A program made the position numbers and the translations under genes. Under the pieces are notes generated by a model that was given only the letters and a program-made list of their open reading frames with translations, was not told the DNA's origin and searched no databases. 64,000 bases of DNA from Eubacterium sp. GTDB taxonomy: Bacteria > Bacillota > Clostridia > Lachnospirales > Lachnospiraceae. The DNA lies in contig JAFYHN010000035.1 in the NCBI GenBank assembly GCA_017539165.1, positions 86,822 to 150,821 of the forward strand, given 5' to 3'. Positions within the stretch are counted from its first letter, which is position 1. Each line of letters opens with the position of its first letter. Shown here one piece after another: positions 1 to 44,439 of the stretch.

Positions 1-142
1 TAAGAACATTCTCCAGAGAATTGGTCATATCCATTGCAAGCATTCCTGTAAATGAACAGACCGCAATACTCAGAACGAGAAAAATCATTATCAAAGGTTT
101 CGCAAATATATTTCTGATTGTATGTTTTAAAATAGTACTCAT
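1..142 (-). CDS. FtsX-type ABC permease, N-terminus only
   Basis: The first 47 residues of a permease that continues past the left edge. The start reads MSTILKHTIRNIFAKPLIM, nearly the same as the full permease at 4916-7438 (MGTIIKHTLRNIFAKPLIT), and is followed by the same first membrane segment and the DMTNSL motif. The ATG at 142 sits one base after the stop codon of the M13 peptidase, exactly as in the complete unit, so the two are translationally coupled. It is the permease of the third peptidase-permease-ATPase unit. Whether the gene is complete cannot be seen. Confidence 0.85.
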   Translation of the reverse strand, partial: MSTILKHTIRNIFAKPLIMIFLVLSIAVCSFTGMLAMDMTNSLENVL

Positions 143-143
143 A

Positions 144-2111
144 TTACCACCTTTTCACTCTTTCTTCTGGAGACACGTACATTCCGTCTCCCTCTTTTAC
201 GTCAAATGCTTCATAGAATTTATCACATGATGAAAGCGGTGCATTAACCCTGACTATAGCCGGAGAATGCTCATCAGATGCTAAGGCTTGAAGGCTCTCA
301 ACATCGCTTGCGAATCTTCTCCAGATTAATCCGAAACTCTTATACATCGTCTGCAGGTCTTCTTTTTTCTGAGCAATATTAGAGATACATTCAAGAGCTC
401 CAATATCTGCATAATTCTCACCAAGCGTAAGTACACCATCTACGTGATATACGTCCATGATCGTATATTTTGAATAGTAATCTATACACATATTTGCACG
501 CTCTGTAAGAGCATTTCTATCTTCCTCATTGAGCCACTCAGGATTTAAGTTACCATCGGCATCCCATTTCATACAGTTTGAATCAAATGCATGACCAACT
601 TCATGTGCTATAACCATTCCGAGCCCACCGAGATTTGAGTAATAATCTCCATTTTCATCAAAGAAAACTCCGTTCTGAATTCCAGCTGGAATAACAACAA
701 CATTATCAACCCAATAGCATGCATTTACAGTCTGCGGGGTCATTACTGATCCCTCTTTCTCTCTCTTTGTCTTTAGTTTTTCAATTCTGTGATCCCATCT
801 AAACTTCAATATATTTTTATGGGTTTCATATAAATCTGCTCCGATAAGACTTTCTGAGCTCAGACCGTCATCGCCAAACTGTCCACCTGTTCTGTATTCT
901 ATATTCTCAAGTTTTTTCAAAAGCTTATCTCTACCATCCTGTGTAAGCCAGTCTGCATTTCCAATAAGTTCTCTGTAAGACTGTCTGATATCTTCACACA
1001 TAGCTCTGATCTTGTCATCTTTTTCCTTTGGATAATAAGCCGCTTTATAAAGTCTTCCAAGAGGATCTTCAAGATCTTTCATAATAAGATTCTTTGCAAG
1101 CAAATCACCCTCTTCGGTCACTTCACCGAAAATAAGTTTTAAATCATTATATTTATCTGATAAATAATAGTTATATTTGTCCGCATATTCCAGGAGGAGC
1201 CATATTTTAAAATTCTCTAGATTTTTTTCATCAGAAAGATTAGCAGATATAGTTTTAAATGATTCTGGATGAAATACTGCCCATACGTCATATGGATTTT
1301 CTACTCCCATGCCTTTTGAAAAGCTCTCAGTATCAAATCCCATCTCTTTCATTTCTTTACCATTAAGAGTCAGTACGTTATCATATATAAGTCTTTCATC
1401 AAGACTATGATAGGCTATATCAACTGCCATTGCAGTAAAATCATCTGCTTTTTTTCTTGCCTCTGAGTTGTCATATCCGATATGAATCAGAACATTTTTG
1501 ACTTTATTTCTGAGGTCAGTCCTGCCATCTTCTGTATTTGCAATAGTTTTATTTGAATATCCGAGTATAGTTCTGGATAGTTCAAATTCAAATGAATACT
1601 GATCTGCTCTCGTATATCCATTTGATATACTGAATTTTGCTAATGGAAATACACTGTAATCATGTTCATACTTTCCAAACATTTCCATCATCTCAGTCAT
1701 GGAGCTTATACTGCTTATTTCATTAATAGCATTTTCAAAATCTGAATCAGCGTTACTGTTATTTCCCGAATAATTGATTACCTGATCATAATAATCAGCT
1801 ATAAGTTTTGCATCGGTTGATGTGTGTGTGCTGCTCTTCATAACATTATCTATGAGTGCACGCTGCTGTTGATCAGAATAAATATTACATTCGGCAAATT
1901 TGCCGTATCCAAATTTAGGATCTACTTCAGCATCTCTCAGGTCAGCTTCATTCATATATCCGTAGAAATCATCCTGAGGTCTTATCTCCGTTTCCTGTTT
2001 CTCTGGTTCAGTTCCGGCCTCTTCCGCTTTCACGAAACTGGTGCCGATTGGAGAAACTATCATAGAGATAAGAGTTGTCCCTATTACAAAGTTTCTAAAT
2101 CCTTTCTTCAT
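144..2111 (-). CDS. Secreted M13 family zinc metallopeptidase (neprilysin/PepO-like), unit 3
   Basis: 655 aa, near the usual length of about 630-700 for M13 endopeptidases, which cut short peptides with a single zinc. An N-terminal signal segment (residues 1-30, KK charge then a hydrophobic run ending in VKA) suggests export. Catalytic features are intact: zinc motif HEVGH in the stretch LGMVIAHEVGHAFD, third ligand in ENYADIGAL, the VNACYW substrate-binding motif in the position of VNAYY, and the family C-terminus RVNAPLSS...W. AAGGAG lies 8 bases before the ATG. It is followed one base later by a permease start. It is a paralogue of 2359-3996 and 7440-9383. The substrate is unknown; coupling to an ABC exporter suggests peptide processing or defence, which is inference. 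Confidence 0.93.
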   Translation of the reverse strand: MKKGFRNFVIGTTLISMIVSPIGTSFVKAEEAGTEPEKQETEIRPQDDFYGYMNEADLRDAEVDPKFGYGKFAECNIYSDQQQRALIDNVMKSSTHTSTDAKLIADYYDQVINYSGNNSNADSDFENAINEISSISSMTEMMEMFGKYEHDYSVFPLAKFSISNGYTRADQYSFEFELSRTILGYSNKTIANTEDGRTDLRNKVKNVLIHIGYDNSEARKKADDFTAMAVDIAYHSLDERLIYDNVLTLNGKEMKEMGFDTESFSKGMGVENPYDVWAVFHPESFKTISANLSDEKNLENFKIWLLLEYADKYNYYLSDKYNDLKLIFGEVTEEGDLLAKNLIMKDLEDPLGRLYKAAYYPKEKDDKIRAMCEDIRQSYRELIGNADWLTQDGRDKLLKKLENIEYRTGGQFGDDGLSSESLIGADLYETHKNILKFRWDHRIEKLKTKREKEGSVMTPQTVNACYWVDNVVVIPAGIQNGVFFDENGDYYSNLGGLGMVIAHEVGHAFDSNCMKWDADGNLNPEWLNEEDRNALTERANMCIDYYSKYTIMDVYHVDGVLTLGENYADIGALECISNIAQKKEDLQTMYKSFGLIWRRFASDVESLQALASDEHSPAIVRVNAPLSSCDKFYEAFDVKEGDGMYVSPEERVKRW

Positions 2112-2202
2112 ACAAAATCTCCTTAATAATTTCTAATCGTATGTTGCGCACTCATACTATTTTTACGCCAATATTATACGTCATATATTATTGTATGGGC
2201 AT

Positions 2203-2231
2203 ATTATATTCCGTATAATATTATTTGTCAA
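2203..2231 (-). promoter_or_regulatory. Consensus sigma-A promoter of the unit-3 peptidase operon
   Basis: On the minus strand TTGACA (2231-2226), a 17-bp spacer and TATAAT (2208-2203) match the vegetative consensus exactly. Transcription would start near 2196, giving an 85-base leader before the peptidase ATG at 2111. Unlike the two other units, no phased TTAA array is visible here, so this copy may be constitutive. Confidence 0.8.
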
Positions 2232-2312
2232 TATATATTTTGGAAAATTTTTTCATTCTTATTTTTTCTATATTTTCAAGTATTTTCCAAAGCCGTAATA
2301 TCTCTAAAAGCA

Positions 2313-2353
2313 AAAATATGACAACTGAAATCAGATTTCAGTTGTCATATTTT
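2313..2353 (-). terminator. 41-bp perfect palindrome, copy 1 (probable bidirectional terminator)
   Basis: Two perfectly complementary 20-base arms (AAAATATGACAACTGAAATC and its complement) around a single A. The AAAA/TTTT ends make a hairpin with a U-tract on either strand. It lies directly after the chimeric peptidase gene (stop at 2359). Three other copies are at 4137, 9501 and 44399; arm positions 12-14 differ between copies with compensating changes. Confidence 0.8.
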
Positions 2354-2358
2354 GATTT

Positions 2359-3996
2359 TTACTCTGTCCTGCCTCCATCAAGACGCACTATTCTGTCACC
2401 GTATTCAGCACATTTCTCAGAATGGGTAACCTGCAATATACTGATTCCCTTTTCCTTATTTATCTTTTTAAAGAGTTCCCCCAGTCCACCAAGGTTAGCA
2501 TACTCACTTCGGTTCTCGTCAAAGAAAGGTCCATCCTGAATCGCCGCAGGAATAACCACTACATTATCTACCCAGAAATCAGCATTTACTTGCTGAGACG
2601 GCATTGCATCTCCACACTTAGGTCTTTTTGTTTTCAGAAGTTCCTTTAAATAATTCCACTCAGATCTGATAAGATTTTTACCTGTTTCATATGCGTCAGC
2701 ACCAAGAAGATTCAGATCGATCATTCCGCCATCCGCAGATTCTCCCCCCAATTTGAATTCAATATTTTCCAACTTGGAAAGGAGCTTATCTCTTCCGTCC
2801 TGTGAAAGCCAGTCTGCTTTACTTATAAGCTCTCTGTATGACTGCCTTATATCTTCACACATAGCTCTAACTTTCTCTTCTTTTTCCTTCGTATAATAAG
2901 CCTCCTTATAGAGTCGTCCAAGAGAATCAGTCAGATTTTTCTTCACCAAATATTTTCCTAACATATCACCCTGTTTTGTTTCTTCACCAAACATCCTGTG
3001 TATTGCTCTATAATTATCTGACAGATAAAATTCTTCACTAATCACATAATCCAATAGGAGCCAGATTTTGAAATTCTCAAGATTTTTTTCATCTGACAGT
3101 TTTTCTGTCATTTCCATAAACTGATCCACGCTGGAGATCAACCATTCATCATAAGGATTCTCAACTCCAAAACCTCTCGTAAAGCTGTCTATATCGAATC
3201 CTCTCTGTTTAATTTCTTCTGTATTACAGATAACCACACCATCAAAGTCCTGTGCCTTATCAAGTTTATGAAACGCTATGTCAACAGCCATTGCTGTAAA
3301 ATTATCTGCCGAGATACTAGCTTCTTGCTTATCATATCCGAGATTAATCAACATATTCCTGACTTTATCCCGGAGAGCAGACCTGCCCTCTCTAGATTCA
3401 GCTATATCCTGTACTGGAACTTCTAGAATTGAATCTATACCACTGAATCCTAATGAATACTGGTCACTTGTTGTAAATGATTTAGATATACTGAAATCAT
3501 TTACCGGATGAACCCCGTATTCATAATCATATTTACCTAGCATTTCCATCAGCTCCTGCATAGAACTGATTCCTTCAATCTCTTTTCTGGCATTTTCAAG
3601 ATCAGAATCTGCGTTACTGTTATTACCTGAATAATCGATGACCTGCTGATAATAACTTTTTATAAGCTTTGCATCAGTTGATGTATGTTCATCTTCCGCT
3701 ACTATCTTATCTATCAATTCATCCATTCTCGTATCAGCCAAATATTCACAATCTTCAAATGAACCATAGCCGTATTTCGGATCATATTTAGCATTCCTAA
3801 GAAAAGCTGCATTCATATATCCGTAGAAATCATCCTGTGGTCGGATATCAGCAAACTTTTCATTTTTCTCATTTTCTGCTTCTGCTTCAGTTTCAGTAGC
3901 AACGCCCTCTGCCTTCGTAACGATGTTTCCAACAGGAGATACAATCGTTGAGATAAGCATTGTCCCCAAAACAAAGTTTCTAAGTCCTTTCTTCAT
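2359..3996 (-). CDS. Chimera: M13 peptidase truncated before its zinc site, fused in frame to an ABC-ATPase tail
   Basis: 545 aa. Residues 1 to about 507 are an M13 peptidase paralogue with signal segment, the conserved AMCEDIRQSYRELI region and VNADFWVDNVVVIPA. At the point where relatives read NLGGLGMxxAHEVGH this protein reads [17 protein letters not shown] and ends with 38 residues matching the C-terminus of the ATPase at 4217-4894 ([23 protein letters not shown]). HEXXH and the third zinc ligand are lost, so it cannot be an active peptidase. The simplest origin is one in-frame deletion of about 3.8 kb through a former peptidase-permease-ATPase unit. Ribosome site (AAAGGAG, 7 bases) and signal peptide are intact, so an inactive secreted product is probably still made. 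Confidence 0.9.
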   Translation of the reverse strand: MKKGLRNFVLGTMLISTIVSPVGNIVTKAEGVATETEAEAENEKNEKFADIRPQDDFYGYMNAAFLRNAKYDPKYGYGSFEDCEYLADTRMDELIDKIVAEDEHTSTDAKLIKSYYQQVIDYSGNNSNADSDLENARKEIEGISSMQELMEMLGKYDYEYGVHPVNDFSISKSFTTSDQYSLGFSGIDSILEVPVQDIAESREGRSALRDKVRNMLINLGYDKQEASISADNFTAMAVDIAFHKLDKAQDFDGVVICNTEEIKQRGFDIDSFTRGFGVENPYDEWLISSVDQFMEMTEKLSDEKNLENFKIWLLLDYVISEEFYLSDNYRAIHRMFGEETKQGDMLGKYLVKKNLTDSLGRLYKEAYYTKEKEEKVRAMCEDIRQSYRELISKADWLSQDGRDKLLSKLENIEFKLGGESADGGMIDLNLLGADAYETGKNLIRSEWNYLKELLKTKRPKCGDAMPSQQVNADFWVDNVVVIPAAIQDGPFFDENRSEYANLGGLGELFKKINKEKGISILQVTHSEKCAEYGDRIVRLDGGRTE

Positions 3997-4085
3997 TTTT
4001 TTCTCCTTTAATGTTACTTCATAATGTATGTGCGCATTTCATACACGGATTTATATCCTATGACGTCATTCTAAATGCTGTAACA

Positions 4086-4121
4086 TTAATGTGCTTTAAC
4101 TCCACATTAAGTTTATATTAA
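4086..4121 (-). promoter_or_regulatory. Phased TTAA direct-repeat operator upstream of the chimeric unit
   Basis: TTAA boxes begin at 4086, 4096, 4107 and 4118 (spacing 10, 11, 11). The same spacing recurs upstream of the complete unit at 9434-9469, and a 17-bp core (4094-4110 against 9442-9458) is identical at 16 positions. About one-helical-turn spacing is typical of tandem OmpR/PhoB-family regulator sites. It lies about 90 bp before the start at 3996. Regulator identity is inference. Confidence 0.6.
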
Positions 4122-4136
4122 TTCCCATAAAGTCAA

Positions 4137-4177
4137 AAAATATGACACTTGAAATCTGATTTCAAGTGTCATATTTT
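4137..4177 (-). terminator. 41-bp perfect palindrome, copy 2 (probable bidirectional terminator)
   Basis: Two 20-base arms around a single T; same family as 2313, with compensating arm changes (ACACTTG paired with CAAGTGT). It lies 40 bases after the ATPase stop codon and closes the complete peptidase-permease-ATPase unit. Confidence 0.8.
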
Positions 4178-4216
4178 CTTGTAATCTTATGAAAAAAGGA
4201 CTATTTATATGATGTT

Positions 4217-4894
4217 TTACTCTGTCTTGCCTCCGTCAAGACGTACTATTCTGTCGCCAAATCCGGCGCATTTTTCGGAATGGGTAACCTGAAGAATACT
4301 GATTCCCTTTTCTTTATTTATCTTTTTGAACAGCTCCATGATCTCATTTCCGGAATTCTTATCAAGGTTACCTGTGGCCTCGTCTGCCAGGATAAGCTCA
4401 GGTTCTCCCATAACAGCTCTTGCTATCGCAACTCGCTGCTGCTGTCCTCCGGAGAGTCTGGAAGGATATTCCTTTCTCTTTTCTGTAAGTCCGGTAATCT
4501 TAAGTATCTCATCCAGCTTTTTCTTTAGACTAGCCTTACTCTTACCTGCAACAAGCGACGGAAGCATAATGTTATCCTCTACATTTAGATTCTGAACCAG
4601 ATTATAGAACTGGAAGATAAATCCTATCTTATTAAGTCTAAGTTCGGATAGTTCTTTCTCTTTAATCTTCGAGATATTCTTTCCGCATACGAATATATCT
4701 CCACTGTAATCCCTGTCGAGTCCTCCGATCATATAGAGTAGCGTTGATTTACCTGTTCCGGATGGTCCCATAAGGGATACAAACTCACCTTTCTTAACAT
4801 TCATACTTGCCCCGTCAAGAACCTTCGTTCTGACTGTCTTTGCTGATCCAAATTCTTTCTTAACTCCGCTTACTTCGATTATATTTTCCATCAT
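4217..4894 (-). CDS. ABC transporter ATP-binding protein (LolD/MacB family)
   Basis: 225 aa, normal for the family. Walker A is GPSGTGKST, the Q-loop region is FIFQFYNL, the ABC signature is LSGGQQQR, Walker B is [12 protein letters not shown] and the switch histidine is in VTHSEKC. It should power the FtsX-type permease encoded 21 bases upstream, acting at the membrane in mechanotransmission or export as known for LolD/MacB/BceA relatives. The start could be either of two adjacent ATGs (4894 or 4891) after GAGGTAAG. Its last 38 codons are duplicated at the end of the chimeric gene 2359-3996. Confidence 0.95.
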
Positions 4895-4915
4895 CTTACC
4901 TCTCGTTATTCATCT

Positions 4916-7438
4916 TTATTCATACTTAAGCTGTTCTGACAGTTTCATCTTCTTGATATTCTTTCTGGTCTTAAGAATTGTAATGCTAAATGCAACCAAC
5001 ATTCCCAGAAGTAGTAAACCTGTCTTTGCAAAGTCAATAACTATTTCCATCTTTATCAGTGATGCCAGTGCGCCAAACAAAAGTTTAGTAAGTACTAAGC
5101 CGATTGCCACACCGGAAACTATCGCTATCATGCTTGAGAACAAGTTTTCAAGCATAAACAGTTTGATAAGTTTTTTTCTGCTCATAGAGGTTGATACAAG
5201 AACCGCACTCTCCCTCTTTCTATTTTCAAATGCCACTATCTGGTTACAGATAACTCCGATAAGAGCAAGACCAACTCCCATAGCCATGATCATTCCTAAA
5301 AGTGCGAATTCAGACTTACTTTTATCTATTACGTCATCTATATATTCATCCATTGTCTTTACAGTCGATATCCTGCTGGATGAATAGCTCTCGATCAGAT
5401 CCTTTGTTCTGGCCGGATCAGTAGACTTGATATAAACTCTCGATGGACTATCAAAGTAGATTCTCTTATAGTTATCCATATTCATTAAAATGATTCTGTT
5501 TGAAGCATCTTCCTTAGATGAATCAATATATCCGGCAACTTTAAATGTCTCTCTGAATGGAATCGCACCCCTTCCTTTAAGAAGTATATCGAGATCATCT
5601 CCCTTCTTGACATTTATCTCTTTTGCTAATGTTTCAGTAATATAGATCTCATCGGATTTTATCTCATCAGGAATTCCGGATATATTTTTATATAATCTGT
5701 ATTTTCCATCAGCCCCGTAAACTCCTATCTGATTAAGAAGATCATCACTGTTTTCTTCATATTTCTTTTCGAGATAATCATCTATCTCTTTAGTACCTGT
5801 AACAACATAATCAAGTGCTGTACTGTAAATGAACTCAACATCGGTCACGCCTTCAAGTGTGTTATAAAACTCATATGTTTCTTTCCCTTTAGTAAGTCCA
5901 TTTACCACTATATCTGCATCTGCAGGTCTGAACATAATATAATTGTACTCAGACATTATATAAGTAAACAGACATACACAAACAGCTGTCGCAATGAATA
6001 TAAGTCTTGAACTTCCTATGGTAGTTTTCTTGCTTCTCAGATTTGTTGTAGCAAGCCCGACAATAGGCTTTCCTTTTCTAAATGCCCTCTTCTCAATAAG
6101 AGAACCTATACCTCTAAGCACGAATGGATATCCCATATATCCTGCGATAACTACAAATGTAAAACCAAGGAGACAGATAAAACCACTTTTAACAAATACT
6201 GTTCCTATCACGAAAAGGATAACCGATACGATACCAAGTATGATTGAAATGTACTTATACTTATTCTTAAACTTATAATCTGTTTCTTTATTATCAAATA
6301 TGATATCTCTTATCGGACGTTTAGTAGCTTTGAGAAGTTCTTTGAGAGGACAAAGCATTTCCACAACAATCGCTCCGACTATTATTGTCACAATGGCTGC
6401 CGGTGATATCTTTCCGAGATCCATCGTATATTCGATACCCGAAGCTAAATTAATATTAAACATACCGTTGAAGAAAGGGTCTCTTATCAAAGCATATGTC
6501 ATGGTACCGAAAATGCCACCGAATAATCCATAGAATAGGTTTTCAATAAGGATTACCCTGGCCGTAATAGAAGGTGAAACGCCCAGGCTTCGAAGCGTTC
6601 CCACAGTCGACATACGCTCAAGCATTATTCTCTCCGAAAGTGATATCGTAACGAATATAACCAGCAAGAGTGTTATCAGGAATAAACCAAGGAATATACC
6701 TGTTATCGTAGCAAGTTGTGATTTGAAGTCTTTTCCATTAATGACATCAAGAACACTTCCTGTAGGATCTTTCTTTTCAAGGATATCAGCTGCCTCAGAA
6801 CTCTTACTTGAATCCTTCATTTTTATATATGCTGTACTGTACTTTACCTTACCGTCGTGTACAAGCCTCGCCATACCATTTTCAGTAACTAATGCTGAGT
6901 ACTCACCACTGAGAAGTCCAGCAGGTTTTACGATCTTTTTGATCTTGAAATCAGCATCTATATCGTTATCTCCGAATATGGTAAATGTATCTCCCTCTTT
7001 AAGTCCCATATCTTCTGCTATCTTATCGGTAACGACACATTCATCATCATTTAACACAATATCTTTCGCCAATATCTTGAAATCAATAGCGGCGTCTATG
7101 TCAGTACAATATGTTGTCAGGCTCTTCTGATTGTAATATTCATACATATTGTCATTCTTTACACACATCGAAGAACTTTTACTACTGATCAGTATTGCTT
7201 CATGTTCAGGGATATCATCAAGGTCACCATCTTCTATACTGTCAGATGCATAGTACATAACCTCTGCTTTTCCAGTCTCCTGAGCCACTAAAGATTGGAT
7301 GACATTTGTCAAAGAATTACTCATGTCTAGAGCGAGTATACCTGTAAATGCACATACCGTAATACTCAATATCAAAAAGATTGTTATTAAAGGTTTAGCA
7401 AATATATTTCTTAAAGTATGTTTTATTATTGTTCCCAT
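4916..7438 (-). CDS. FtsX-type ABC transporter permease, two FtsX domains
   Basis: 840 aa membrane protein. Membrane segments can be seen near residues 15-40, then a large extracytoplasmic domain to about 235, a block of segments about 245-430, a second start-like segment near 480-500, a second extracytoplasmic domain to about 680, and a last block to about 820. This duplicated FtsX layout is typical of MacB/SalY-like permeases working with LolD-type ATPases. The ATG is one base after the stop of the M13 peptidase 7440-9383 and the ATPase follows at 4894, so the three are one operon. The substrate is unknown; an extracytoplasmic peptide or peptide-sensing role is inference from the linked peptidase and neighbouring LanFEG-like transporter. 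Confidence 0.92.
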   Translation of the reverse strand: MGTIIKHTLRNIFAKPLITIFLILSITVCAFTGILALDMSNSLTNVIQSLVAQETGKAEVMYYASDSIEDGDLDDIPEHEAILISSKSSSMCVKNDNMYEYYNQKSLTTYCTDIDAAIDFKILAKDIVLNDDECVVTDKIAEDMGLKEGDTFTIFGDNDIDADFKIKKIVKPAGLLSGEYSALVTENGMARLVHDGKVKYSTAYIKMKDSSKSSEAADILEKKDPTGSVLDVINGKDFKSQLATITGIFLGLFLITLLLVIFVTISLSERIMLERMSTVGTLRSLGVSPSITARVILIENLFYGLFGGIFGTMTYALIRDPFFNGMFNINLASGIEYTMDLGKISPAAIVTIIVGAIVVEMLCPLKELLKATKRPIRDIIFDNKETDYKFKNKYKYISIILGIVSVILFVIGTVFVKSGFICLLGFTFVVIAGYMGYPFVLRGIGSLIEKRAFRKGKPIVGLATTNLRSKKTTIGSSRLIFIATAVCVCLFTYIMSEYNYIMFRPADADIVVNGLTKGKETYEFYNTLEGVTDVEFIYSTALDYVVTGTKEIDDYLEKKYEENSDDLLNQIGVYGADGKYRLYKNISGIPDEIKSDEIYITETLAKEINVKKGDDLDILLKGRGAIPFRETFKVAGYIDSSKEDASNRIILMNMDNYKRIYFDSPSRVYIKSTDPARTKDLIESYSSSRISTVKTMDEYIDDVIDKSKSEFALLGMIMAMGVGLALIGVICNQIVAFENRKRESAVLVSTSMSRKKLIKLFMLENLFSSMIAIVSGVAIGLVLTKLLFGALASLIKMEIVIDFAKTGLLLLGMLVAFSITILKTRKNIKKMKLSEQLKYE

Positions 7439-7439
7439 C

Positions 7440-9383
7440 TTACCACCTGTTCACTCTTTTATCCGGAGAGACATACATTCCGTCTCCCTCTTTTACATCA
7501 AATGCTTCATAGAATTTTTCACAAGACGAAAGCGGGGCATTAACCCTGACTCTGTCCGGAGAATGCACATCAGTTGCTAGTAGTGTCAGAGCACCTACAT
7601 CACTTCCCAGACTCCTGTATATTCGAGCAAAGCTTTCATACATTTCCTTAAAATCCTCTTTATTCTTCGGAATGTTAGATATACATTCGATAGCTCCAAG
7701 ATCTGCATAGTTTTCACCAAGCGTAAGCTTACCGTCTACGTGATATACATCCATGATCGTGTATCTTCCATAATAATCTATACACATAGCTGAACGTTCT
7801 TCCAGAGCCTTTCTGTCCTCCTCGTTAAGCCACTCAGGATTTCTGTTTCCTTTTTCATCCCATTTAATACAGTTAGCATCAAATGCATGACCAACCTCAT
7901 GTGCTAAGATCATTCCTAGTCCACCGAGATTTGCGTACTCGCTGCGGCCGTCATCGAAGAAAGCTCCTTCCTGTATCGCAACAGGCACAACAACTACATT
8001 ATCAACACAGAAACATGCATTTACTGTCTGAGGAGTCATAGCTGCACCTCGTTTAGGTCTTTTAGTCTTAAGATCTTCTTTATAACAATCCTTCTTAAAT
8101 CTGATCATGTTCTTAGAAGTTTCATACGCATCAGCTCCGATAAGACTTTCAGAACTTCTTCCACAATCCTTATATTCACCACCGATCTTAAAATCTATAT
8201 TCTCCAGCTTTGTTAGAAGTTTGTCTCTTCCTTCCTGAGAAAGCCAGTCTGCATTTCCGATAAGATCTCTGTATGAATCCCTTATGTCTTCACACATAGC
8301 TCTTACTTTATCTTCTTTTTCCTTCGTATAATAAGCTTCGTGATACAACCTTCCTAAAGAATCTTCCAGATCACTCTTAACATATGCTTTAGCAAGCATA
8401 TCGCCTGATTTAGTCTGTTCACCGAAAACGTTCTTCAAACTCTTGTAATTATCAGACAGATAGTTTTCGAATCCACTCACATATTCCAGGAGGAGCCATA
8501 CCTTAAAATTCTCGAGATTTTTTTCATCTGATAACATTTCACATATAGTAGTAAACTGCTCCTCATACTCGATCATCCAACGATCATAAGGATTCGCAAT
8601 GCCATAACCTCGAGCATAGCTATCTATATCAAATCCTTTTGCTTTTAATTCATCCGTATTGCAATATACTATGTCATCAAATTCTATATTCATATTCTGA
8701 CTATGATATGCTATATCAACAGCCATAACAGTAAAATCATCTGCTATTTTACTTGCCTCAGCCTTATCGTAGCCGATATTGTAGAGGATATCCCTGGCTT
8801 TATCTCTAAGAGTGGATCTTCCTTTTTCCGTTGTTGCCAGTTCTTTAGTCTCTACTCCGAGGACTGACTTGATAGCTTCAAATCCTATCGAATACTCCTC
8901 GCTTTTGAACATACCCTCTCCAACTCCGAATTTAATAGGCTGAACTCCATATTCGTAGTTATATCTTCCGAGTACTACCATCAGCTCCTGCATGGAACTG
9001 ATTCCTTCTATCTCTTTTCTGACATTTTCAAGATCAGCATCTGCATTACTGTTTTCTCCTGAGTAATCGAGTACCTGCTGATAATAATCCTTGATAAGCT
9101 TTGCATCAGTTGAGGTATGTCCGTCACCTTTTACAATCTTATCTATCAGCTCATCCAATCTCTCATCAGCCAGGCGTGTGCAATCTTCAAATGAACCGTA
9201 ACCGTATTTCGGATCTCGTTCTGCATTCCTCAGATCCGCAGCATTTACATATCCATAAAAATCGTCCTGCGCCCTGATTTCAGACGAAACACCTTCTGCT
9301 CTCACAACAAAGCTCCCTATAGGAGAAACAATCGTCGAGATAAGCATTGTTCCTAAAACAAAGTTTTTAAATCCTTTCTTCAT
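7440..9383 (-). CDS. Secreted M13 family zinc metallopeptidase, complete unit 1
   Basis: 647 aa from the ATG at 9383. An in-frame ATG two codons earlier (9389) has GGAG directly against it and is too close; the chosen ATG has TAAGGAG 7 bases away and gives MKKGFKNF, matching both paralogues. There is a signal segment to about residue 30. The zinc site is LAHEVGHAFD, the third ligand is in ENYADLGAI, the substrate motif is VNACFCVDNVVVVPVAIQ, and the C-terminus RVNAPLSSC...RW is complete. It leads a peptidase-permease-ATPase operon with single-base spacing to the permease. It is similar throughout to 144-2111, so the units arose by tandem duplication. Confidence 0.94.
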   Translation of the reverse strand: MKKGFKNFVLGTMLISTIVSPIGSFVVRAEGVSSEIRAQDDFYGYVNAADLRNAERDPKYGYGSFEDCTRLADERLDELIDKIVKGDGHTSTDAKLIKDYYQQVLDYSGENSNADADLENVRKEIEGISSMQELMVVLGRYNYEYGVQPIKFGVGEGMFKSEEYSIGFEAIKSVLGVETKELATTEKGRSTLRDKARDILYNIGYDKAEASKIADDFTVMAVDIAYHSQNMNIEFDDIVYCNTDELKAKGFDIDSYARGYGIANPYDRWMIEYEEQFTTICEMLSDEKNLENFKVWLLLEYVSGFENYLSDNYKSLKNVFGEQTKSGDMLAKAYVKSDLEDSLGRLYHEAYYTKEKEDKVRAMCEDIRDSYRDLIGNADWLSQEGRDKLLTKLENIDFKIGGEYKDCGRSSESLIGADAYETSKNMIRFKKDCYKEDLKTKRPKRGAAMTPQTVNACFCVDNVVVVPVAIQEGAFFDDGRSEYANLGGLGMILAHEVGHAFDANCIKWDEKGNRNPEWLNEEDRKALEERSAMCIDYYGRYTIMDVYHVDGKLTLGENYADLGAIECISNIPKNKEDFKEMYESFARIYRSLGSDVGALTLLATDVHSPDRVRVNAPLSSCEKFYEAFDVKEGDGMYVSPDKRVNRW

Positions 9384-9433
9384 TTTCATCTCCTTATTAT
9401 TTCTAGTATGGTTCTATTGTAAACGTTATTACT

Positions 9434-9469
9434 TTAAACTTCTTTAACTCAACATTAACCTAAGCTTAA
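9434..9469 (-). promoter_or_regulatory. Phased TTAA direct-repeat operator of the complete unit
   Basis: TTAA boxes begin at 9434, 9444, 9455 and 9466 (10, 11, 11 bp), identical in spacing to 4086-4121. Reading towards the peptidase, a TACAAT -10 box follows at about 9416-9421 with no good -35 hexamer, which fits a promoter needing an activator bound to the repeats. The closest candidate regulator is the OmpR-family protein at 10946-11608. Confidence 0.62.
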
Positions 9470-9500: not shown

Positions 9501-9541
9501 AAAATATGACAGTTGAAATCAGATTTCAACTGTCATATTTT
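9501..9541 (-). terminator. 41-bp perfect palindrome, copy 3 (probable bidirectional terminator)
   Basis: 20-base arms around a single A, 10 bases after the histidine kinase stop codon. Same family as 2313, 4137 and 44399. It ends the transporter/two-component operon. Confidence 0.82.
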
Positions 9542-9551
9542 TCAAAAACTA

Positions 9552-10958
9552 TTAAAATGTTATCGTTACGCGGGCGCCTCCGGTTTCGGTATTCTCAAGC
9601 TTGATGTTACCGCCATGTTTCTCCGCCACTTTCTTGGCTGAGAAGAGACCTATTCCATAATGCGTTCCACCTGATCGGCTCGAATCGCCCATGAAGAACT
9701 GCTCCGTACCATGTCTCAGAGCTTCTTCTGAAAAGCCGCATCCGGTGTCTTCTACTGTGAATACGAGTTTGTTTTTCTTATCACTCTGCTTATTACTCTT
9801 CTCATTATCTTCCCTATCGTTATTACTTATATCTCTGACTTTCACCTTGATAGTACCACCCGCCGGAGTATGTTCTGATGCATTCTTTACAATATTCATG
9901 ACCGCTCTTACAAGCTGGTCATAGATTACATTTACACTTTCCGTACTAACGTTTTCTTCCCATTCAGTCTTCAGATGGAAAACCTCCGTCAGTCCAATGG
10001 TCTGTTTCTTTATATCTTCGAGAAGGCTCTGTGTCTCCACTCTTTCAGGTGGATAATCATATACTTCTTCTGCTTTCGTAACTTCAATAAGTGTCTCCAC
10101 ATAATTCTGGATCTGCATAGCACTTCCGGCAATATAATCGGTGTAATTCTTCTGCTCGTCCGTTAATTCTGTCTCCTGAAGAAGTCCAGCATTGCCTCGT
10201 ACGACAGTAAGTGGCGTCTTGATATCATGTGCCAGAGCTGACATTTGTCTTGTTTTTTCCTGCTCCGCTTTCCACTGACTTTCTAGTGAAGTTTTCAGCT
10301 CACTTCGCAGGTCATCTATGGAAGTAAGACAATCATCTATCTCTTTCACTCCTGCAAATGTCGTCTCATAATCAAGATCCTGCTGCCTTATCTTATCAAC
10401 TGCATCCATGACAGGAAGCATCATCTTCTTCATCTTTTTACCAAACCTAATTGAAGAGATTATTATGAGAAGTAAACATCCGATTACAATAATGTATGTC
10501 ATCAGACTCTCCGGTGCAATCAGATGTTCTCTTAAAAATTCTGACTTATACTGAGCTACAAGGCTATACTGCAATACGACGTACTGATTTTTTCGAACGA
10601 TTACTTTATAGTAGTAACGGTCCATCACATTTTCATGAATTACAGCATTCCAGGCAACTTCTGCTGAATTATCGTCCATATTTCCATCCAGATAATGTCC
10701 ATCTGCGTCAAAAACCACATAACGGCAGCAATCCGGAATGATATCCTCTGTCACAACATCTGAGTTCTTTATATCCTGATACCTCTGGCCTATCATAACT
10801 TCAGGATAATTCGAAGGATATATCTGTCCCATTTCAATCAGAAGTAAAAATATGCCAAATGCAATCGCCGAATATACAAACAGCGATATTATCATGATAA
10901 CAACATACTGCAAAAAAAGACCGCCGAGGGTATTCTTCTTTTTCTTTATTCTGTCCAT
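9552..10958 (-). CDS. Sensor histidine kinase of a LanFEG/CprABC-like locus
   Basis: 468 aa from the ATG at 10958; a TTG at 10976 is also in frame but the ATG has GGGGGA about 10 bases before it. Two membrane segments (about residues 15-40 and 150-170) bracket a 110-residue extracytoplasmic sensor. The phosphoacceptor is in ALAHDIKTPLTVVRGN; ATP-binding boxes are NIVKNASEHT, VEDTGCGFS and HYGIGLFSAKKVAEKHGG. It overlaps the end of the regulator gene by 13 bases. Gene order (ATPase, two permeases, regulator, kinase) resembles SpaRK/CprRK loci that sense cationic antimicrobial peptides; the ligand is inference. Confidence 0.92.
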   Translation of the reverse strand: MDRIKKKKNTLGGLFLQYVVIMIISLFVYSAIAFGIFLLLIEMGQIYPSNYPEVMIGQRYQDIKNSDVVTEDIIPDCCRYVVFDADGHYLDGNMDDNSAEVAWNAVIHENVMDRYYYKVIVRKNQYVVLQYSLVAQYKSEFLREHLIAPESLMTYIIVIGCLLLIIISSIRFGKKMKKMMLPVMDAVDKIRQQDLDYETTFAGVKEIDDCLTSIDDLRSELKTSLESQWKAEQEKTRQMSALAHDIKTPLTVVRGNAGLLQETELTDEQKNYTDYIAGSAMQIQNYVETLIEVTKAEEVYDYPPERVETQSLLEDIKKQTIGLTEVFHLKTEWEENVSTESVNVIYDQLVRAVMNIVKNASEHTPAGGTIKVKVRDISNNDREDNEKSNKQSDKKNKLVFTVEDTGCGFSEEALRHGTEQFFMGDSSRSGGTHYGIGLFSAKKVAEKHGGNIKLENTETGGARVTITF

Positions 10959-11608
10959 TTGTATCCAATCCCCCAAACTGTTTTTATCGGCATGTAATCA
11001 TAGTTCGAAAGCTTCATCCTTATATTCTTGATGTGAGTAGTTATCGTATTGTCATTGCTTTCATTATCATATCCGAATACATTTTCCAGAATCTGTTCTT
11101 TTGAAAAAACCTGTCCACGATGTTTCGCAAGAAATTCACAGATCTCGTACTCACCCTTTGTAAGCGTAATCCTGTCATCATCTATCATCATCTGTTTTTC
11201 TGCGAGATTGAAACATATTCGCCCTACTACAAGTCTGGCAACGTGTTCTCGCCTCTCACGTCTCAGATGTGCTGAAATCCTGGCTCTGAGTTCCATAACC
11301 CCAAACGGCTTACAGATATAGTCATCTGCGCCGAGCGCAAGTCCATTTACAAGACTATTCTCTTCTGTCTTAGCCGTAATGAAAAGAATCGGGCAGTCAA
11401 CAATATCTCTGATTCTGGTGCACAGTTCGAATCCGTCAATCCCGGGCATCATAATGTCCAGAAGAATCAGGTCGTATTGATTAATCTTCTCCATGTTAAG
11501 TTGAGTTGGATCACCCACCTTGGTGACCATGTGTCCGTCTTTGCCGAGGATAGCGCCAATCATATCAAGGATTGCCACATCATCGTCGACTGCAAGTATA
11601 TTTGCCAT
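10946..11608 (-). CDS. OmpR-family response regulator
   Basis: 220 aa. The receiver domain has the acidic pocket VDDDVA, phosphoacceptor Asp in LILLDIMMPGIDG (about residue 53), Thr in ITAKTE and Lys in CKPFG. The C-terminal winged helix ends VWGIGYKWTE. It pairs with the kinase downstream (13-base overlap) and follows the ABC transporter genes by 9 bases, so it probably controls that operon. It is also the nearest candidate for binding the phased TTAA arrays before the M13 peptidase units, since OmpR-family proteins bind tandem half-sites one helical turn apart. Confidence 0.94.
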   Translation of the reverse strand: MANILAVDDDVAILDMIGAILGKDGHMVTKVGDPTQLNMEKINQYDLILLDIMMPGIDGFELCTRIRDIVDCPILFITAKTEENSLVNGLALGADDYICKPFGVMELRARISAHLRRERREHVARLVVGRICFNLAEKQMMIDDDRITLTKGEYEICEFLAKHRGQVFSKEQILENVFGYDNESNDNTITTHIKNIRMKLSNYDYMPIKTVWGIGYKWTE

Positions 11609-11617
11609 AATTTACCT

Positions 11618-12331
11618 CTACTCAGATATCTTTTTTCCTTCCCAACGGAAAGCCCAAAGTACATAATACACTATACTTGCCAATGTAACCACTGTAAAAT
11701 TAATTATCATAGATTTCTGATCAACTCCCTGCAGATATGATGCAGGAATTCTCGTTGTCCATGCTGCAGGAATAAATCTCCATATTCTTTCACCTAGTCC
11801 TGTCATCATAAGTGCACTTACCAGTCCTCCGAGGATACCAACTCCGATCGAAGCACCCTTACCGAGGCGAAATGCTATCACCATCTGCCAGATATAAAGT
11901 GGGATACCTGCAAGCCAAATGAGTGCTGTTGATGTAAGGTAAACTCTGAATAAATTCGATGTACCGGATAAACTCATACCTGTACCGAATATAAGTGTTG
12001 TCAAAACCAGTGAAAATAAACTGTATATATTAAGTATGATCACTTTTGATACAAATGCTGTGATCTTATGTTTTACAGAAAGTATATTCTGGTATGCTCC
12101 GGCACTCTGCTCAAGCTCAACCAGGCTTGCTGTAAAGATTCCTATCAGAACCGGGAAGCCTATTCCAACTGCCTCATAAAATGCAGATATTTTTGTCTGA
12201 TCATTCCATCCGCAGATCTTGTAGTATGCAAGGAACATTGCGCTTATCAGGATTGGGATTACTATATGTGCATATGTGATTGGAAGACGTTTCATCTTAA
12301 GAAGATCAACTCGAAGACATCTGAATAACAT
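11618..12331 (-). CDS. ABC transporter permease (LanG/MutG-like)
   Basis: 237 aa with about six membrane segments and no soluble domain, the pattern of the ABC-2-type permeases in lantibiotic immunity transporters (LanE/LanG, CprB/CprC). The N-terminus (MLFRCLRVDLLKMKRLPITYAHIVIPI) matches that group's cytoplasmic helix followed by the first membrane span. It begins 2 bases after the stop of the sister permease and is followed by the response regulator. Expected to expel or shed antimicrobial peptides from the membrane; substrate not known. Confidence 0.85.
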   Translation of the reverse strand: MLFRCLRVDLLKMKRLPITYAHIVIPILISAMFLAYYKICGWNDQTKISAFYEAVGIGFPVLIGIFTASLVELEQSAGAYQNILSVKHKITAFVSKVIILNIYSLFSLVLTTLIFGTGMSLSGTSNLFRVYLTSTALIWLAGIPLYIWQMVIAFRLGKGASIGVGILGGLVSALMMTGLGERIWRFIPAAWTTRIPASYLQGVDQKSMIINFTVVTLASIVYYVLWAFRWEGKKISE

Positions 12332-12333
12332 TA

Positions 12334-13065
12334 CTATCTCACCTCTCTCTTATTAAACCAGTTTAGATACAGGATTGTTCCAAGAACAAACCATACGAGT
12401 GATACGATGATTCCAGGAAGGATCACTGATGTATCAAGAAATGCGCTGCCAGCTTCGATTCGAAGTCCATTTGGCATAACATGAAGTATCGGACATAAAA
12501 CTCTCATTGGGATAGCAGATACACAGAAGATCCACTTTGAAGTAGGAGCTAATACTGTTCCTGCTACTGTTATAAAAAGACATACGATCAGTTCAACTAT
12601 CATTCCGAAGCGTTCACTAAGGAAAAGGAGGAGTGGGATTTCCCACATCTGAACTATAGTCAGAACAAAGATTGCAGCAACTGCACCCTTAATAGGAACG
12701 CAAGTTGTAAGGAGTTTACCACCTATTGTTGAACCTGCAAAAATGATCACATTTGCTACCAGCATGATAATCGCCATAAAAAATATCTTACCAAGCATCA
12801 GCTTTCTTCTTCCTGTTGAAAGTGTCATCAGATTGTAGTACTTTGTTTTCTTCTCTCTTGCTACTGAAAGATAACTAACGATTGCAAGCATTCCCGGAAG
12901 AAGCAGTGTGTACCACCAGTTCCAAACGCTTTCTGAGTACGCATTTTTAATTCCTGATGTGAATAAAAATGCCATTGCAAATACGATAACCGGAAATACT
13001 GGGATAAATAACATACTAACAGTTCTTCTTGTTTTTAAAAATTCAGCTTTAATTATACTAAGCAT
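12334..13065 (-). CDS. ABC transporter permease (LanE/MutE-like)
   Basis: 243 aa, about six membrane segments, N-terminus MLSIIKAEFLKTRRTVSMLFIPVFPV typical of LanE-type permeases. The ATG lies inside the last codons of the ATPase gene (8-base overlap) with GGAGG well placed, showing a tight operon. It should form a heterodimer with the next permease and the ATPase in an antimicrobial-peptide resistance transporter. Function is inferred from family and gene order. Confidence 0.86.
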   Translation of the reverse strand: MLSIIKAEFLKTRRTVSMLFIPVFPVIVFAMAFLFTSGIKNAYSESVWNWWYTLLLPGMLAIVSYLSVAREKKTKYYNLMTLSTGRRKLMLGKIFFMAIIMLVANVIIFAGSTIGGKLLTTCVPIKGAVAAIFVLTIVQMWEIPLLLFLSERFGMIVELIVCLFITVAGTVLAPTSKWIFCVSAIPMRVLCPILHVMPNGLRIEAGSAFLDTSVILPGIIVSLVWFVLGTILYLNWFNKREVR

Positions 13066-13771
13066 ATGCGACAGCCTCCATTCTACTTGCTCTTACAACA
13101 TCCATGAAAAGTGTTTCCAGATCAATGTTCTGATCCAGCGGACCCTCGTATCCGAGAACTCCGTCTGATATGATTCCTACGTGATCAGCAATAAGCTGAA
13201 CTTCCGAAAGTATATGACTCGAAAGTATTACCGTGATCCCCTGCTTTGGAAATGAACGGATCAGTTCTCTAAGTTCTTCAATTCCTATCGGATCAAGACC
13301 GTTTGTAGGTTCATCAAGGATCAGAAGTTTTGGACTTCCGAGAAGTGCCATCGCAATACCGAGGCGCTGCTTCATACCGAGTGAAAATTGTCCGGCTCTC
13401 TTTTTTCCCGTATTCTCAAGAGATACTGTCTTCAATACCTCATCAATTCTTTCATCACCCACACCCAGAAGAAGTGCTCTGACCTTCAGGTTTTCTCTTG
13501 CTGAAAGATTTTCATATATAGGAGGATTCTCGATAAGAGCTCCTATATCAGCAAGTGCATCTCTGTTCCAAGGTTTACCGTCAAAATCTATATCACCGTC
13601 AGTCGGCTTCAGGATTCCTGTGATCATCTTCAATGTTGTCGACTTACCTGCACCATTCGGTCCAAGAAGTCCATAAACCTGACCCTTTGGAATATTTAGT
13701 GAAACTCCATTCACCGCTGTCTGTTTCTTAAATCTCTTTGTAAGATTATCTGTTTTTAACATCATTTCCAT
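13058..13771 (-). CDS. ABC transporter ATP-binding protein (LanF/MutF/CprA-like)
   Basis: 237 aa from ATG 13771 (MEMMLKTDNLTKRF); an in-frame GTG at 13786 overlaps the ribosome site itself. Walker A is GPNGAGKST, signature FSLGMKQRLGIA, Walker B LLILDEPTNGLDPIG, and the H-loop is in LSSHILSEV. The motifs IENPPIYENLSARENL and LSSHILSEVQ are characteristic of lantibiotic-protection ATPases. First gene of a five-gene operon with two permeases, response regulator and kinase. Likely role: resistance to cationic peptides or lantibiotics. Confidence 0.93.
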   Translation of the reverse strand: MEMMLKTDNLTKRFKKQTAVNGVSLNIPKGQVYGLLGPNGAGKSTTLKMITGILKPTDGDIDFDGKPWNRDALADIGALIENPPIYENLSARENLKVRALLLGVGDERIDEVLKTVSLENTGKKRAGQFSLGMKQRLGIAMALLGSPKLLILDEPTNGLDPIGIEELRELIRSFPKQGITVILSSHILSEVQLIADHVGIISDGVLGYEGPLDQNIDLETLFMDVVRASRMEAVAYA

Positions 13772-13865
13772 AATTACCATCCTCACTTTCTTTCATCGTT
13801 TTTTCCTTAATTGCTTTCGATGATTGGAGTATATGGAAAAAAAATAAAGAATTTATGAAGATTTC

Positions 13866-25625: not shown

Positions 25626-28600
25626 TTAATGCTCTACCTTTCTTAATATTCCTTGTTCTAATAATTCAGATATTTTATTACTGAATTCATACTGAATTCC
25701 ACCACCTTTTTCTCCAAACCACGGTGCTATTTTTCCTGATTGAACCTCTACTGGTTTAACTACTTCAAATATTGTATATGGTTTTTTGTCTGTACCAACA
25801 GGTAATGCTCTTTCTGTATATGATGTTCCCTGTGGAGAAACGAAGTATCCTCCATCATATCCATATCTATCTACCATCGTGCCTGGCTCTAAAGTAATAG
25901 TAACTGGTTCACCATCAAAGCCACGATTAGGTGGCCATATTGGACTTCCATCAGCATTATAATATGTGCCACTTCCCCCCTCTACTTCAACTACGTCTCC
26001 AACTCCATTTTCGTTTAATGTATATTTTTTTAGACAATTTTCTCCATAAACAATAGCCTGTCCTTGCAAGCCATACAAATGGCAAAATTGAGCAGCTGAA
26101 ATAATTGCCATGCCGAAATAAAGAATTGCATTTAGATTATCTCCTTTTAATGCATAATACAGCGATGTAAAAATACTAGTTATTGACATGGCACCAGCAT
26201 TACACATCATAAACTGAGTCATTGAAATGCCCAATGCTGCCGTACAGAAGAATCCTAAAGCACCTAAACCAGCACCCATGACAAATCCTTTGATCATGCC
26301 CTTAAGAACTTCATCTTCGGGACATCCCATCAATGTCATAATACCACCAGTAATTGTGCTATTGATCAACCCCATAACAACAATCTTATCCATGTTGTTG
26401 AGTACATTCATTATACCAGTACAGATCATCTGCGAAGTTATAAAGAAATGTCCACTTGGATCGGTATAGTTTACTGGGTCAGCATTTGCATACAAATATT
26501 TATGGAGTGTATCCGGGTCAGTGATACTGCCTTCATATGTATCCATACTTGTGAATACTCCGATTGAAGTATCCATATATCTGGCTCTTAGGTAGTATAA
26601 TCCTGTTTCAGCGTCTAAATATTCTCCGGCATATAAATAGCTATTATCTATAGTACCTGTTTTTTCGAGAAGTTCTCCATATGCATTATACTTATATGTT
26701 GCCTTTTCAGCACTATTTTCATCTGTAAGAATTCTTACATCGCCGTGACCATCACTTATATAATAAATGTTCTGGTTCGAGAAATCCATACTTATGATTT
26801 CTCCGGCTGTTATATATCCTCTATTCAGTTTTCCGTTCTTGTCAGTTTCTGCAAGGGTTGTTGAATATTCACAGTTTGTATCTGTTACAAAAAGAATTGT
26901 TTCTTTTGCAGAATTATTAGTCTTGCTTCTTCTTACTCCTTCTGCATCATATGCATATGAATAATCAATATCCCCGCATCTGTATCCGATCATTCTGTTG
27001 TATACATCATATGTATACAGAGCTTTTTCAGTATTATTGATCTTGCTGATAAGATTTCCGTTCAGGTCATATTCATAAACTGTCTTATCTCCATCATTAG
27101 ATGTTTCCTCAGATACGAGCTGATTCTTAGAATTATACTTATATGTTGTCTCTACTCCATCTACAGTCTGAGAAGTTCTATTTCCGACTTTATCATATTC
27201 ATATGAGTAGGTTGTTACATTTTCTTTACCATTCTTCTTTTCTGTTATCTTATCAGTTATTAATCGGTCTTCGTCATCTCGTTCATATTCTGATATTGTT
27301 TCAGAATCAGACTTCTTTTCTGAAGCTTTTACCTTAAGACCATTCTCATATACATAACTGTATTCTGCCAGAAGCTTATCTGTTCTATCAGTAGCTTTTT
27401 CTGTTTCAAGACGATTGCATTTGTCATAAGTATATACGATACTTACTCCATTTGAATACTTTGTGCTTGCTCTGTTACCATTAGAATCATATGTATATTC
27501 TGAAACAGTTTTATTATCATCTATAACTTTTGATAATCTGCCCTGAGAATCATATTCGTACTTAACAGCTGTATATGTTTCATTTTCACCAAATGACTCT
27601 ACGCTGTTCTCTCTTCCGAATTCGTCATAACCATATCTTATCTTTTGTCCGTTCTCATATAACTTTTCTTCTAATTCTCCATATTTATTATAAGAATAGG
27701 ATATCTGACTATCATCAGTCTTAATGGATTTTACACGACCAAAATCATCATAGAAATATTCGATAACACTGTCGCCAGACTTTATTACACTTGGTCTATC
27801 TTCATCATCATAGGTATAGATAGTCTTAACACCTTTATAATCAGTAATCTCATTTATTCTTCCATGCGAATCATAGCTGTAACTCATATTGCTTCCGTCT
27901 GGAAGGATAGTTGCTACTCTTCTGGAATTTACATCATATTTATACTGAGTTTCATTTCCATTCCCGTCTTTTACAGATATCAGATTCCCCTGACTGTCAT
28001 ACGAATAAACAGTTTCTGATCCAGAATTCTGAGTCACCTTAATCAGACGGTCAGCTGAATCATATGTATAATCTGTTTTTCTACCCGTTGTCGATGTTTT
28101 TGATAAACATCTTCCACGGCTATCGGTTGTAATACTTTCTGAACTTCCATCAGCATAGATAGTTTTTACTCTTTCACCTCTGTCATTGTACTCATAATTA
28201 GTGATACTTCCTTTAGAATCAGTAACACTTGTTAATAATGATCTTTCATCATAAGCAAATGAAGTTGTATTACCATCTTTATCTGTTGTCTTTGTATTCC
28301 TGTTCAGCGCATCAAAATAATAAGTTATGCTATATCCAGTCGGATAAATAACCTTTGTCAGATTGTTATTCTCATCATATTCGAAATTAGTAATATTGCC
28401 TCTTGAATCAGATTCCTTGACAAGATTTCCAACTTTATCATACGCAAACTCTTTTTTAATTCCAATTCTGTCTGTTGAAGAAAGAGTTCTTCCTTCCGCA
28501 TCATATGTAAATTCTTCCTTTGTACCATCGGAATAAACAATTTTACTTACTTTACCAAGCGAAGTATAGTCATAACTTGTACGTCTTCCCTCTGAATCTA

Positions 28601-35129: not shown

Positions 35130-35186
35130 CTTGTTGTCCTCCATTAAGATTGTCATTAAGAAATAACATTTAATATTTCCCGGATG

Positions 35187-44399: not shown

Positions 44400-44439
44400 A
44401 AATATGACAGTTGAAATCTGATTTCAACTGTCATATTTT
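44399..44439. terminator. 41-bp perfect palindrome, copy 4, between convergent genes
   Basis: 20-base arms around a T, starting at the last base of the VanY stop codon and ending 12 bases before the stop of the convergent dehydrogenase gene. This position, plus A/T tracts on both sides, strongly supports bidirectional termination. Same family as copies at 2313, 4137 and 9501, although 35 kb away. Confidence 0.85.

Follow-up and report, generated by a model that had tools for sequence, protein, structure and literature searches.

A Lachnospiraceae gene unit joining an M13 peptidase to an FtsX-type ABC transporter, a candidate for defence against membrane-active peptides

Why does a gene for a secreted zinc peptidase stand beside genes for a membrane transporter, and why in tandem? 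We address this question for a 64,000-nucleotide stretch (the window) of a Eubacterium sp. of the Lachnospiraceae (GenBank assembly GCA_017539165.1, contig JAFYHN010000035.1), which corresponds to C22:86822-150821 in a draft genome of 3.2 Mb. A first-pass annotation had proposed that genes for an M13 peptidase, an FtsX-type ATP-binding cassette (ABC) permease and a LolD-like ATPase recur in the same order in three successive units at its left end, and that peptidase and transporter form one system. We found that the unit is conserved in relatives, and on balance we consider it probable that it serves as an inducible defence of the envelope against membrane-active (antimicrobial) peptides.

Open reading frame (ORF) and Pfam analysis verified the minus-strand order of peptidase, permease and ATPase and bore out the three successive units, the second of which is collapsed. 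Unit 1 encodes an M13 (neprilysin/PepO family) zinc endopeptidase of 649 residues with a Sec-type signal (7440..9389, minus strand; PF05649, PF01431 and motifs), a permease of 840 residues with two FtsX/LolC-like halves (4916..7438, minus strand; PF02687 in two stretches, profile matches and hydropathy) and a LolD/DevA-like ABC ATPase of 225 residues (4217..4894, minus strand; PF00005). Unit 3 begins with an M13 endopeptidase of 655 residues (144..2111; ORF and Pfam) and runs off the left edge of the window. Reading the sequence beyond that edge, a check that had been suggested, revealed a permease of 840 residues (C22:84441-86963) after a one-base gap and an ATPase of 231 residues (C22:83753-84448), so unit 3 is complete; an alpha/beta hydrolase gene follows, its Pfam match slightly below the cut-off. 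Unit 2 is a single ORF (2359..3996, minus strand; 545 residues) in which M13-like residues 1 to ~506 run in frame into the final 39 residues of an ATPase, as Pfam and identity comparison indicate. It lacks HExxH, and its breakpoint near window position 2480 has a short GG overlap at the joint, as in a simple deletion. Unit 2 is thus most simply read as a deletion remnant, although the fusion may be an assembly error. The units are old, diverged paralogues, with identities of 62% for the M13 proteins, 57% for the permeases and 91% for the ATPases. A second species of the genus (G269) carries a unit-1-like M13 gene and a unit-3-like permease gene. The one-base spacing of peptidase and permease holds for units 1 and 3 but is found at just 6 of 23 linked loci, a 7-base overlap being commoner (8 of 23) within a range of -35 to +40 bases, as measured from mechanically assigned start codons.

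We surveyed samples of 250 genomes of the family, 61 of the genus, 291 of the class and 398 of the phylum. A first scan of the collection with a single-protein query yielded one close relative. In the family sample, PF01431 occurred at 36 places outside the window's own genome, all of which we fetched, and the permease gene directly followed at six (G002, G112, G068, G116, G089 and G241). The other 30 lacked this permease alongside, which led us to reject the idea that the whole M13 family is transporter-linked; an M13 gene on contig C31 of the window's own genome is also without this permease next door. A profile of the linked M13 proteins matched strongly at eight places outside the own genome in the genus sample (two in G269 and one each in G279, G257, G304, G256, G253 and G292), seven above 500 bits and one a fragment at 366 bits, and the permease adjoined all eight. 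Among the class genomes, the seven top permeases outside the own genome (556-869 bits), from five genomes of one genus in another family, all followed an M13 gene. Another 29 class permeases were weaker (at most 319 bits) and unlinked: for the 20 fetched, no M13 was among the neighbours listed, and nine lay in genomes without an M13 match. The phylum sample contributed 14 other permeases (210-294 bits), with no M13 match within the flanks examined. Both M13 profile searches together gave 59 loci, 15 of which (the own two and 13 others) had a related permease within the flank. These 13 were strong M13 matches (518-1033 bits, plus the 366-bit fragment); the 44 loci whose M13 genes were weaker matches (at most 486 bits) had no related permease within the flank. 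The ATPase gene followed at 20 of the 21 linked loci where the contig permits inspection. Within these samples, the unit was confined to the window's family and a single other family in the same class. The link would have been chance if M13 genes in related Lachnospiraceae lay apart from such permeases; the adjacency counts in the family, genus and class samples rule chance out, and the proposal of one system stands as a conserved genetic system.

All nine linked M13 proteins of the first sample fell in one clade (support 100/97) in a tree that excluded unit 2 and matches shorter than 500 residues. In a quick tree without the truncated L048 and unlinked permeases shorter than 700 residues, 21 of 22 linked permeases formed one clade with an SH-like approximate likelihood ratio of 100. 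Mantel comparison of M13 and permease distances, possible for 21 of the 23 linked loci, gave r = 0.98, a value reached in none of 2,000 shuffles, and the correlation was 0.97 over 17 pairs after removal of four near-copies. M13 and ATPase distances correlated at 0.90 over 18 loci. This pattern shows that the peptidase and transporter genes travel together, and is no proof that their predicted products touch. The M13 tree also set apart a group (L028, L030, L033 and L038) that precedes LanF-like ABC-2 ATPase genes, with ABC-2 permeases also encoded at L038; this second peptidase-transporter link is distinct from the FtsX-linked one. Elsewhere, L124:6559-11284 carries tandem genes for 781-residue M13 proteins, with no related permease among the neighbours listed.

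Units 1 and 3 exceed the Pfam cut-offs for the M13_N and M13 domains, and unit 2 has M13_N alone, its C-domain match falling below the cut-off. The unit 1 enzyme has HEVGH at residue 497 and ENYAD at 559, and the zinc site (HExxH and ENxAD) is intact in all 21 linked full-length M13 proteins; the peptidases of units 1 and 3 are predicted zinc endopeptidases of family M13. A script recognized a lipobox in 9 of these 21, and we saw four more by eye (L025, L026, L027 and L112). The window's M13, L005 and L116-L120 have plain Sec-type signals, and that of L121 is ambiguous. For the unit 1 permease, hydropathy analysis placed hydrophobic peaks at residues ~17-35, 245-263, 347-365, 397-415, 473-491 and 713-817 and extracytoplasmic ectodomains at ~41-235 and ~501-705. 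A permease profile gave weak matches to solved-structure chains of LolC, LolE, LolF, YtrF and MacB, and the YbbP chain was absent from these matches. With an FtsX-type permease whose transmembrane segments flank the ectodomains, and a LolD-like ATPase, the transporter fits the type VII ABC class (MacB/LolCDE/FtsEX superfamily). The earlier "LolD/FtsX-type" label holds at the level of fold and goes no further, with the ATPase scoring 218.5 bits against the NCBIfam LolD model (TIGR02211; cut-off 307.75), the permease 52 bits against the LolCE equivalog (cut-off 362.45) and 20.6 bits against the YbbP equivalog (cut-off 999), and the FtsE/FtsX family scores likewise below the NCBI cut-offs. In five of five permease pairs, two of them same-genome paralogues, the ectodomains were less conserved than the first transmembrane block (for units 1 and 3, the latter at L005, 50 and 53% against 65%). 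Faster ectodomain divergence is expected where substrates change, yet loops often evolve faster anyway.

How might such a pair work? In the favoured defence reading, the fused LolCE-like permease and its ATPase would lift peptides off the outer leaflet, powered by ATP-driven movement of the ectodomains, and the M13 endopeptidase would cut what is released. The peptidase would occupy the place of the MacA-type adaptor seen in many M13-free relatives, with a lipoprotein-type signal in most relatives, though the window's enzymes and those closest to them carry a plain Sec signal. Here we infer the contact and handover between M13 and permease, the substrate, the direction of movement and resistance. 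BLAST with three adaptors over all ORFs found an HlyD/MacA-type adaptor at 10 of 24 M13-free permease loci, with Pfam agreeing on the three scanned, and at none of the 23 linked loci, several of which end at contig ends. Lacking an adaptor relative at the linked loci, export is not favoured; of the two suggested fates of the peptides, destruction is the plausible one. A bolder formulation, tentative and somewhat doubtful, is that a type VII ABC mechanotransmitter physically docks a neprilysin-family peptidase where a MacA adaptor would sit and hands over to it peptides drawn out of the membrane; extraction and destruction would then have replaced efflux, and the duplicated copies under stress control would each be adapted to different peptides. 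In a separate case, at L044:7311-11735, a GH3-type hydrolase gene takes the place of M13, 18 bases ahead of genes for relatives of the permease and ATPase.

A housekeeping role is one alternative for this machinery: the LolCE-like machine would pull out lipoproteins that have misfolded, or signal peptides left behind, for M13 to degrade. LolC, LolE and LolF chains are the best matches of the permease profile, and stress-type PadR control, described below, would suit upkeep of a damaged membrane. Set against this, the unit is patchy (7 of 60 other genomes in the genus sample) and duplicated with diverged ectodomains, both unlike housekeeping, and we regard such quality control as distinctly unlikely.

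The strongest clue to how the unit is controlled is a putative stress-linked site, the PadR-Toastrack operator. The palindrome ATATTATACGNCGTATAATAT overlaps the unit 3 promoter twice as PadR-type operators with two mismatches each (2171..2221; 2171-2191 and 2201-2221). Allowing up to two mismatches, we found 32 sites in 24 of the 61 genus genomes, against four for the reversed control. Twenty-four precede padR of a PadR-HAAS-Toastrack module, seven precede M13 units (at the window's unit 3, two in G253, two in G256 and one in G257) and one precedes an Rce1-like protease gene in the own genome. At three mismatches, one extra own site appeared before a second Rce1-like gene and the control also gained one; the G279 unit has sites with three and five mismatches. 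Pfam names PadR, the DUF4097 Toastrack and the Rce1-like proteins directly. The middle module gene has no Pfam match, and we read it as a putative HAAS gene from its position and from passages describing such modules in PMC11237479. Passages in PMC2774856 report a PadR operon that is induced by enterocin AS-48 and not by nisin, and whose membrane protein, if overproduced, increases resistance, which supports the stress reading. In the own genome, L171:6110-10178 (contig C14) also holds four tandem lipoprotein-like genes divergent from padR-HAAS-Toastrack, the last of them truncated where the contig stops.

The duplicated copies would answer to different regulators: unit 3 to PadR-Toastrack, and units 1 and 2 perhaps to the neighbouring two-component system. 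Upstream of unit 1 lie genes for a histidine kinase (9552..10976, minus strand; PF00512/PF02518) and an OmpR-type response regulator (10946..11608, minus strand; PF00072/PF00486). A TTAA direct-repeat box, a candidate OmpR-type regulator site, precedes unit 1 (9442..9458, minus strand) and the collapsed unit 2 (4094..4110, minus strand), and we saw a similar box by eye in L048. Since chance gives 1.35 matches per window at up to three mismatches, the box is no more than weak evidence that the neighbouring response regulator controls these units. Two-component, LytTR or GHKL regulators occur near 12 of the 23 linked loci: OmpR-type pairs at the window, L025, L026, L027 and L120; GHKL kinases at L107, L109, L112, L113 and L031, four with a receiver-type regulator beside them (Pfam verified LytTR at L107, L109 and L112, and BLAST revealed a receiver-like ORF at L113); and LytTR with DUF3021 at L108 and L111.

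These GHKL neighbours keep alive a reading as peptide-pheromone turnover, in which the ABC transporter releases or clears a self-made signal peptide, M13 destroys it and the GHKL/LytTR pair is the receptor. PepO and pheromone are named together in streptococcal literature. None of three neighbouring genes of similar size that were scanned (at L113, L107 and L110) was an AgrB gene, in a scan that did not extend to AgrD, regulators differ between loci, and PadR-Toastrack control in the window's genus suggests envelope stress. We judge pheromone turnover unlikely, if still worth considering.

The kinase and regulator genes adjoin lantibiotic-immunity ABC genes for LanG, LanE and LanF (11618..13786, minus strand; TIGR03733, TIGR03732 and TIGR03740 over cut-off). 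This LanFEG-regulator-kinase set lies directly upstream of unit 1 on the same strand, and a LanM gene exists elsewhere in the genome, as would suit a self-immunity or resistance module of this locus. Of the 23 linked loci, several of which end at contig ends, the window alone showed LanE/LanG relatives, and LanM lies on a different contig, accompanied by transporter and AgrB genes of its own. A general lantibiotic link, which the first-pass annotation had raised, was not borne out, general lantibiotic immunity is ruled out, and a module particular to this locus strikes us as very improbable. At the LanM locus (L163:10067-18222, contig C95), the gene for this class II lanthionine synthetase is followed by an ABC ATPase gene recognized on inspection, then by genes for an FtsX permease, a LytTR response regulator and AgrB.

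We give even less credence to nutritional use of peptides by an extracellular peptidase and an importer. Unlinked M13 genes do adjoin other peptidase genes in one genome (G190), but FtsX/LolCE-type permeases are not importers and the regulators are of stress type. Anti-phage defence was set aside as well: a PADLOC scan returned nothing for the permease or the two peptidases, its sole matches being to the ATPase domain.

Several observations weigh against the defence reading or parts of it. M13 enzymes act on short peptides, and many antimicrobial peptides are longer. A scan of the window's M13 proteins found no lipobox, which leaves tethering there unexplained, and 14 of the 24 M13-free loci also gave no HlyD match, so a swap of adaptor for peptidase is not the sole pattern. 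L016 has no adjoining ATPase. The branch joining all 22 linked permeases has a support of 8, with L023 falling outside, beside L044. Plain co-inheritance could equally explain the co-divergence, given the M13-ATPase correlation. The second transmembrane block of units 1 and 3 is 56% identical, barely above the ectodomains. The PadR operator was not found at units 1 and 2, the unit-1-like copy of G269, G304 or G292, and the GHKL kinases at five loci fit pheromone sensing at least as well.

Two further features of the region deserve mention. A near-perfect 29-bp palindrome, TGACAGTTGAAATC/GATTTCAACTGTCA, has 69 genome copies at up to two mismatches (reversed control, none), four of them in the window (2319-2347, 4143-4171, 9507-9535 and 44405-44433). 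In the window it lies behind the histidine kinase gene and behind units 1 and 2, followed in turn by a short T run, and where the stem differs among the listed copies both arms change together, suggesting a dispersed terminator-like element. The window also contains very long ORFs at 25626-35156 and 53648-58888 (3176 and 1746 residues).

If the defence reading is right, the peptidase-coupled type VII ABC transporter would show the same membrane-extraction engine fitted with different enzymes, and a zinc-peptidase analogue of the NSR operon would join gut-bacterial resistance to bacteriocins and host peptides. The PadR-Toastrack operator would supply an induction route, making the unit a candidate effector of a stress module known from comparative genomics. 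As the first-pass annotation had also held, we know of no such gene set: full-text literature searches turned up no description of an M13-transporter combination. Each component is of a familiar kind; what looks new is how they are combined and controlled. In lactococci, the PepO gene lies beside oppDFBCA, likewise an M13 gene next to a peptide ABC transporter, but there the transporter belongs to a different ABC class and imports peptides by way of a binding protein. The LolD and LolCE scores place the unit outside the LolCDE lipoprotein releasers, and the lack of LanE/LanG relatives at linked loci other than the window sets it apart from LanFEG immunity. MadEFG and Spr0693-0695 are MacAB-like pumps that protect Gram-positive cells from LL-37, according to passages of a preprint (PMC10614854) that propose export and name no peptidase partner; many M13-free relatives of our transporter have a MacA-type adaptor, whereas the linked loci lack the one expected of MacAB/MadEFG-type efflux. 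YbbAP-TesA, as passages of PMC12646458 describe it, likewise pairs a type VII ABC transporter with an extracytoplasmic hydrolase, the substrate being drawn out of the membrane before it is hydrolysed. YbbAP-TesA acts on esters and thioesters. It differs in that the TesA esterase is encoded in a neighbouring divergent operon whereas the window's peptidase lies directly upstream in the same gene run, the YbbP match is weak and the partner is M13 rather than TesA. In the NSR operon, including its Corynebacterium version, an extracellular peptidase (NSR), an FtsX-superfamily ABC transporter (the BceAB-type NsrFP) and a two-component system (NsrRK) share one locus and confer nisin resistance; passages of PMC8003753 report this and also that in C. 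casei the set without peptidase doubled the nisin minimum inhibitory concentration and that the peptidase raised it to four-fold. NSR is an S41 serine peptidase and the window's enzyme an M13 zinc peptidase, the NSR permease is a 10-transmembrane BceB type rather than a fused double LolC/E type, and window-type units have other regulators at many loci. The NSR operon is the nearest functional parallel, YbbAP-TesA the nearest mechanical one and MadEFG the adaptor-based counterpart.

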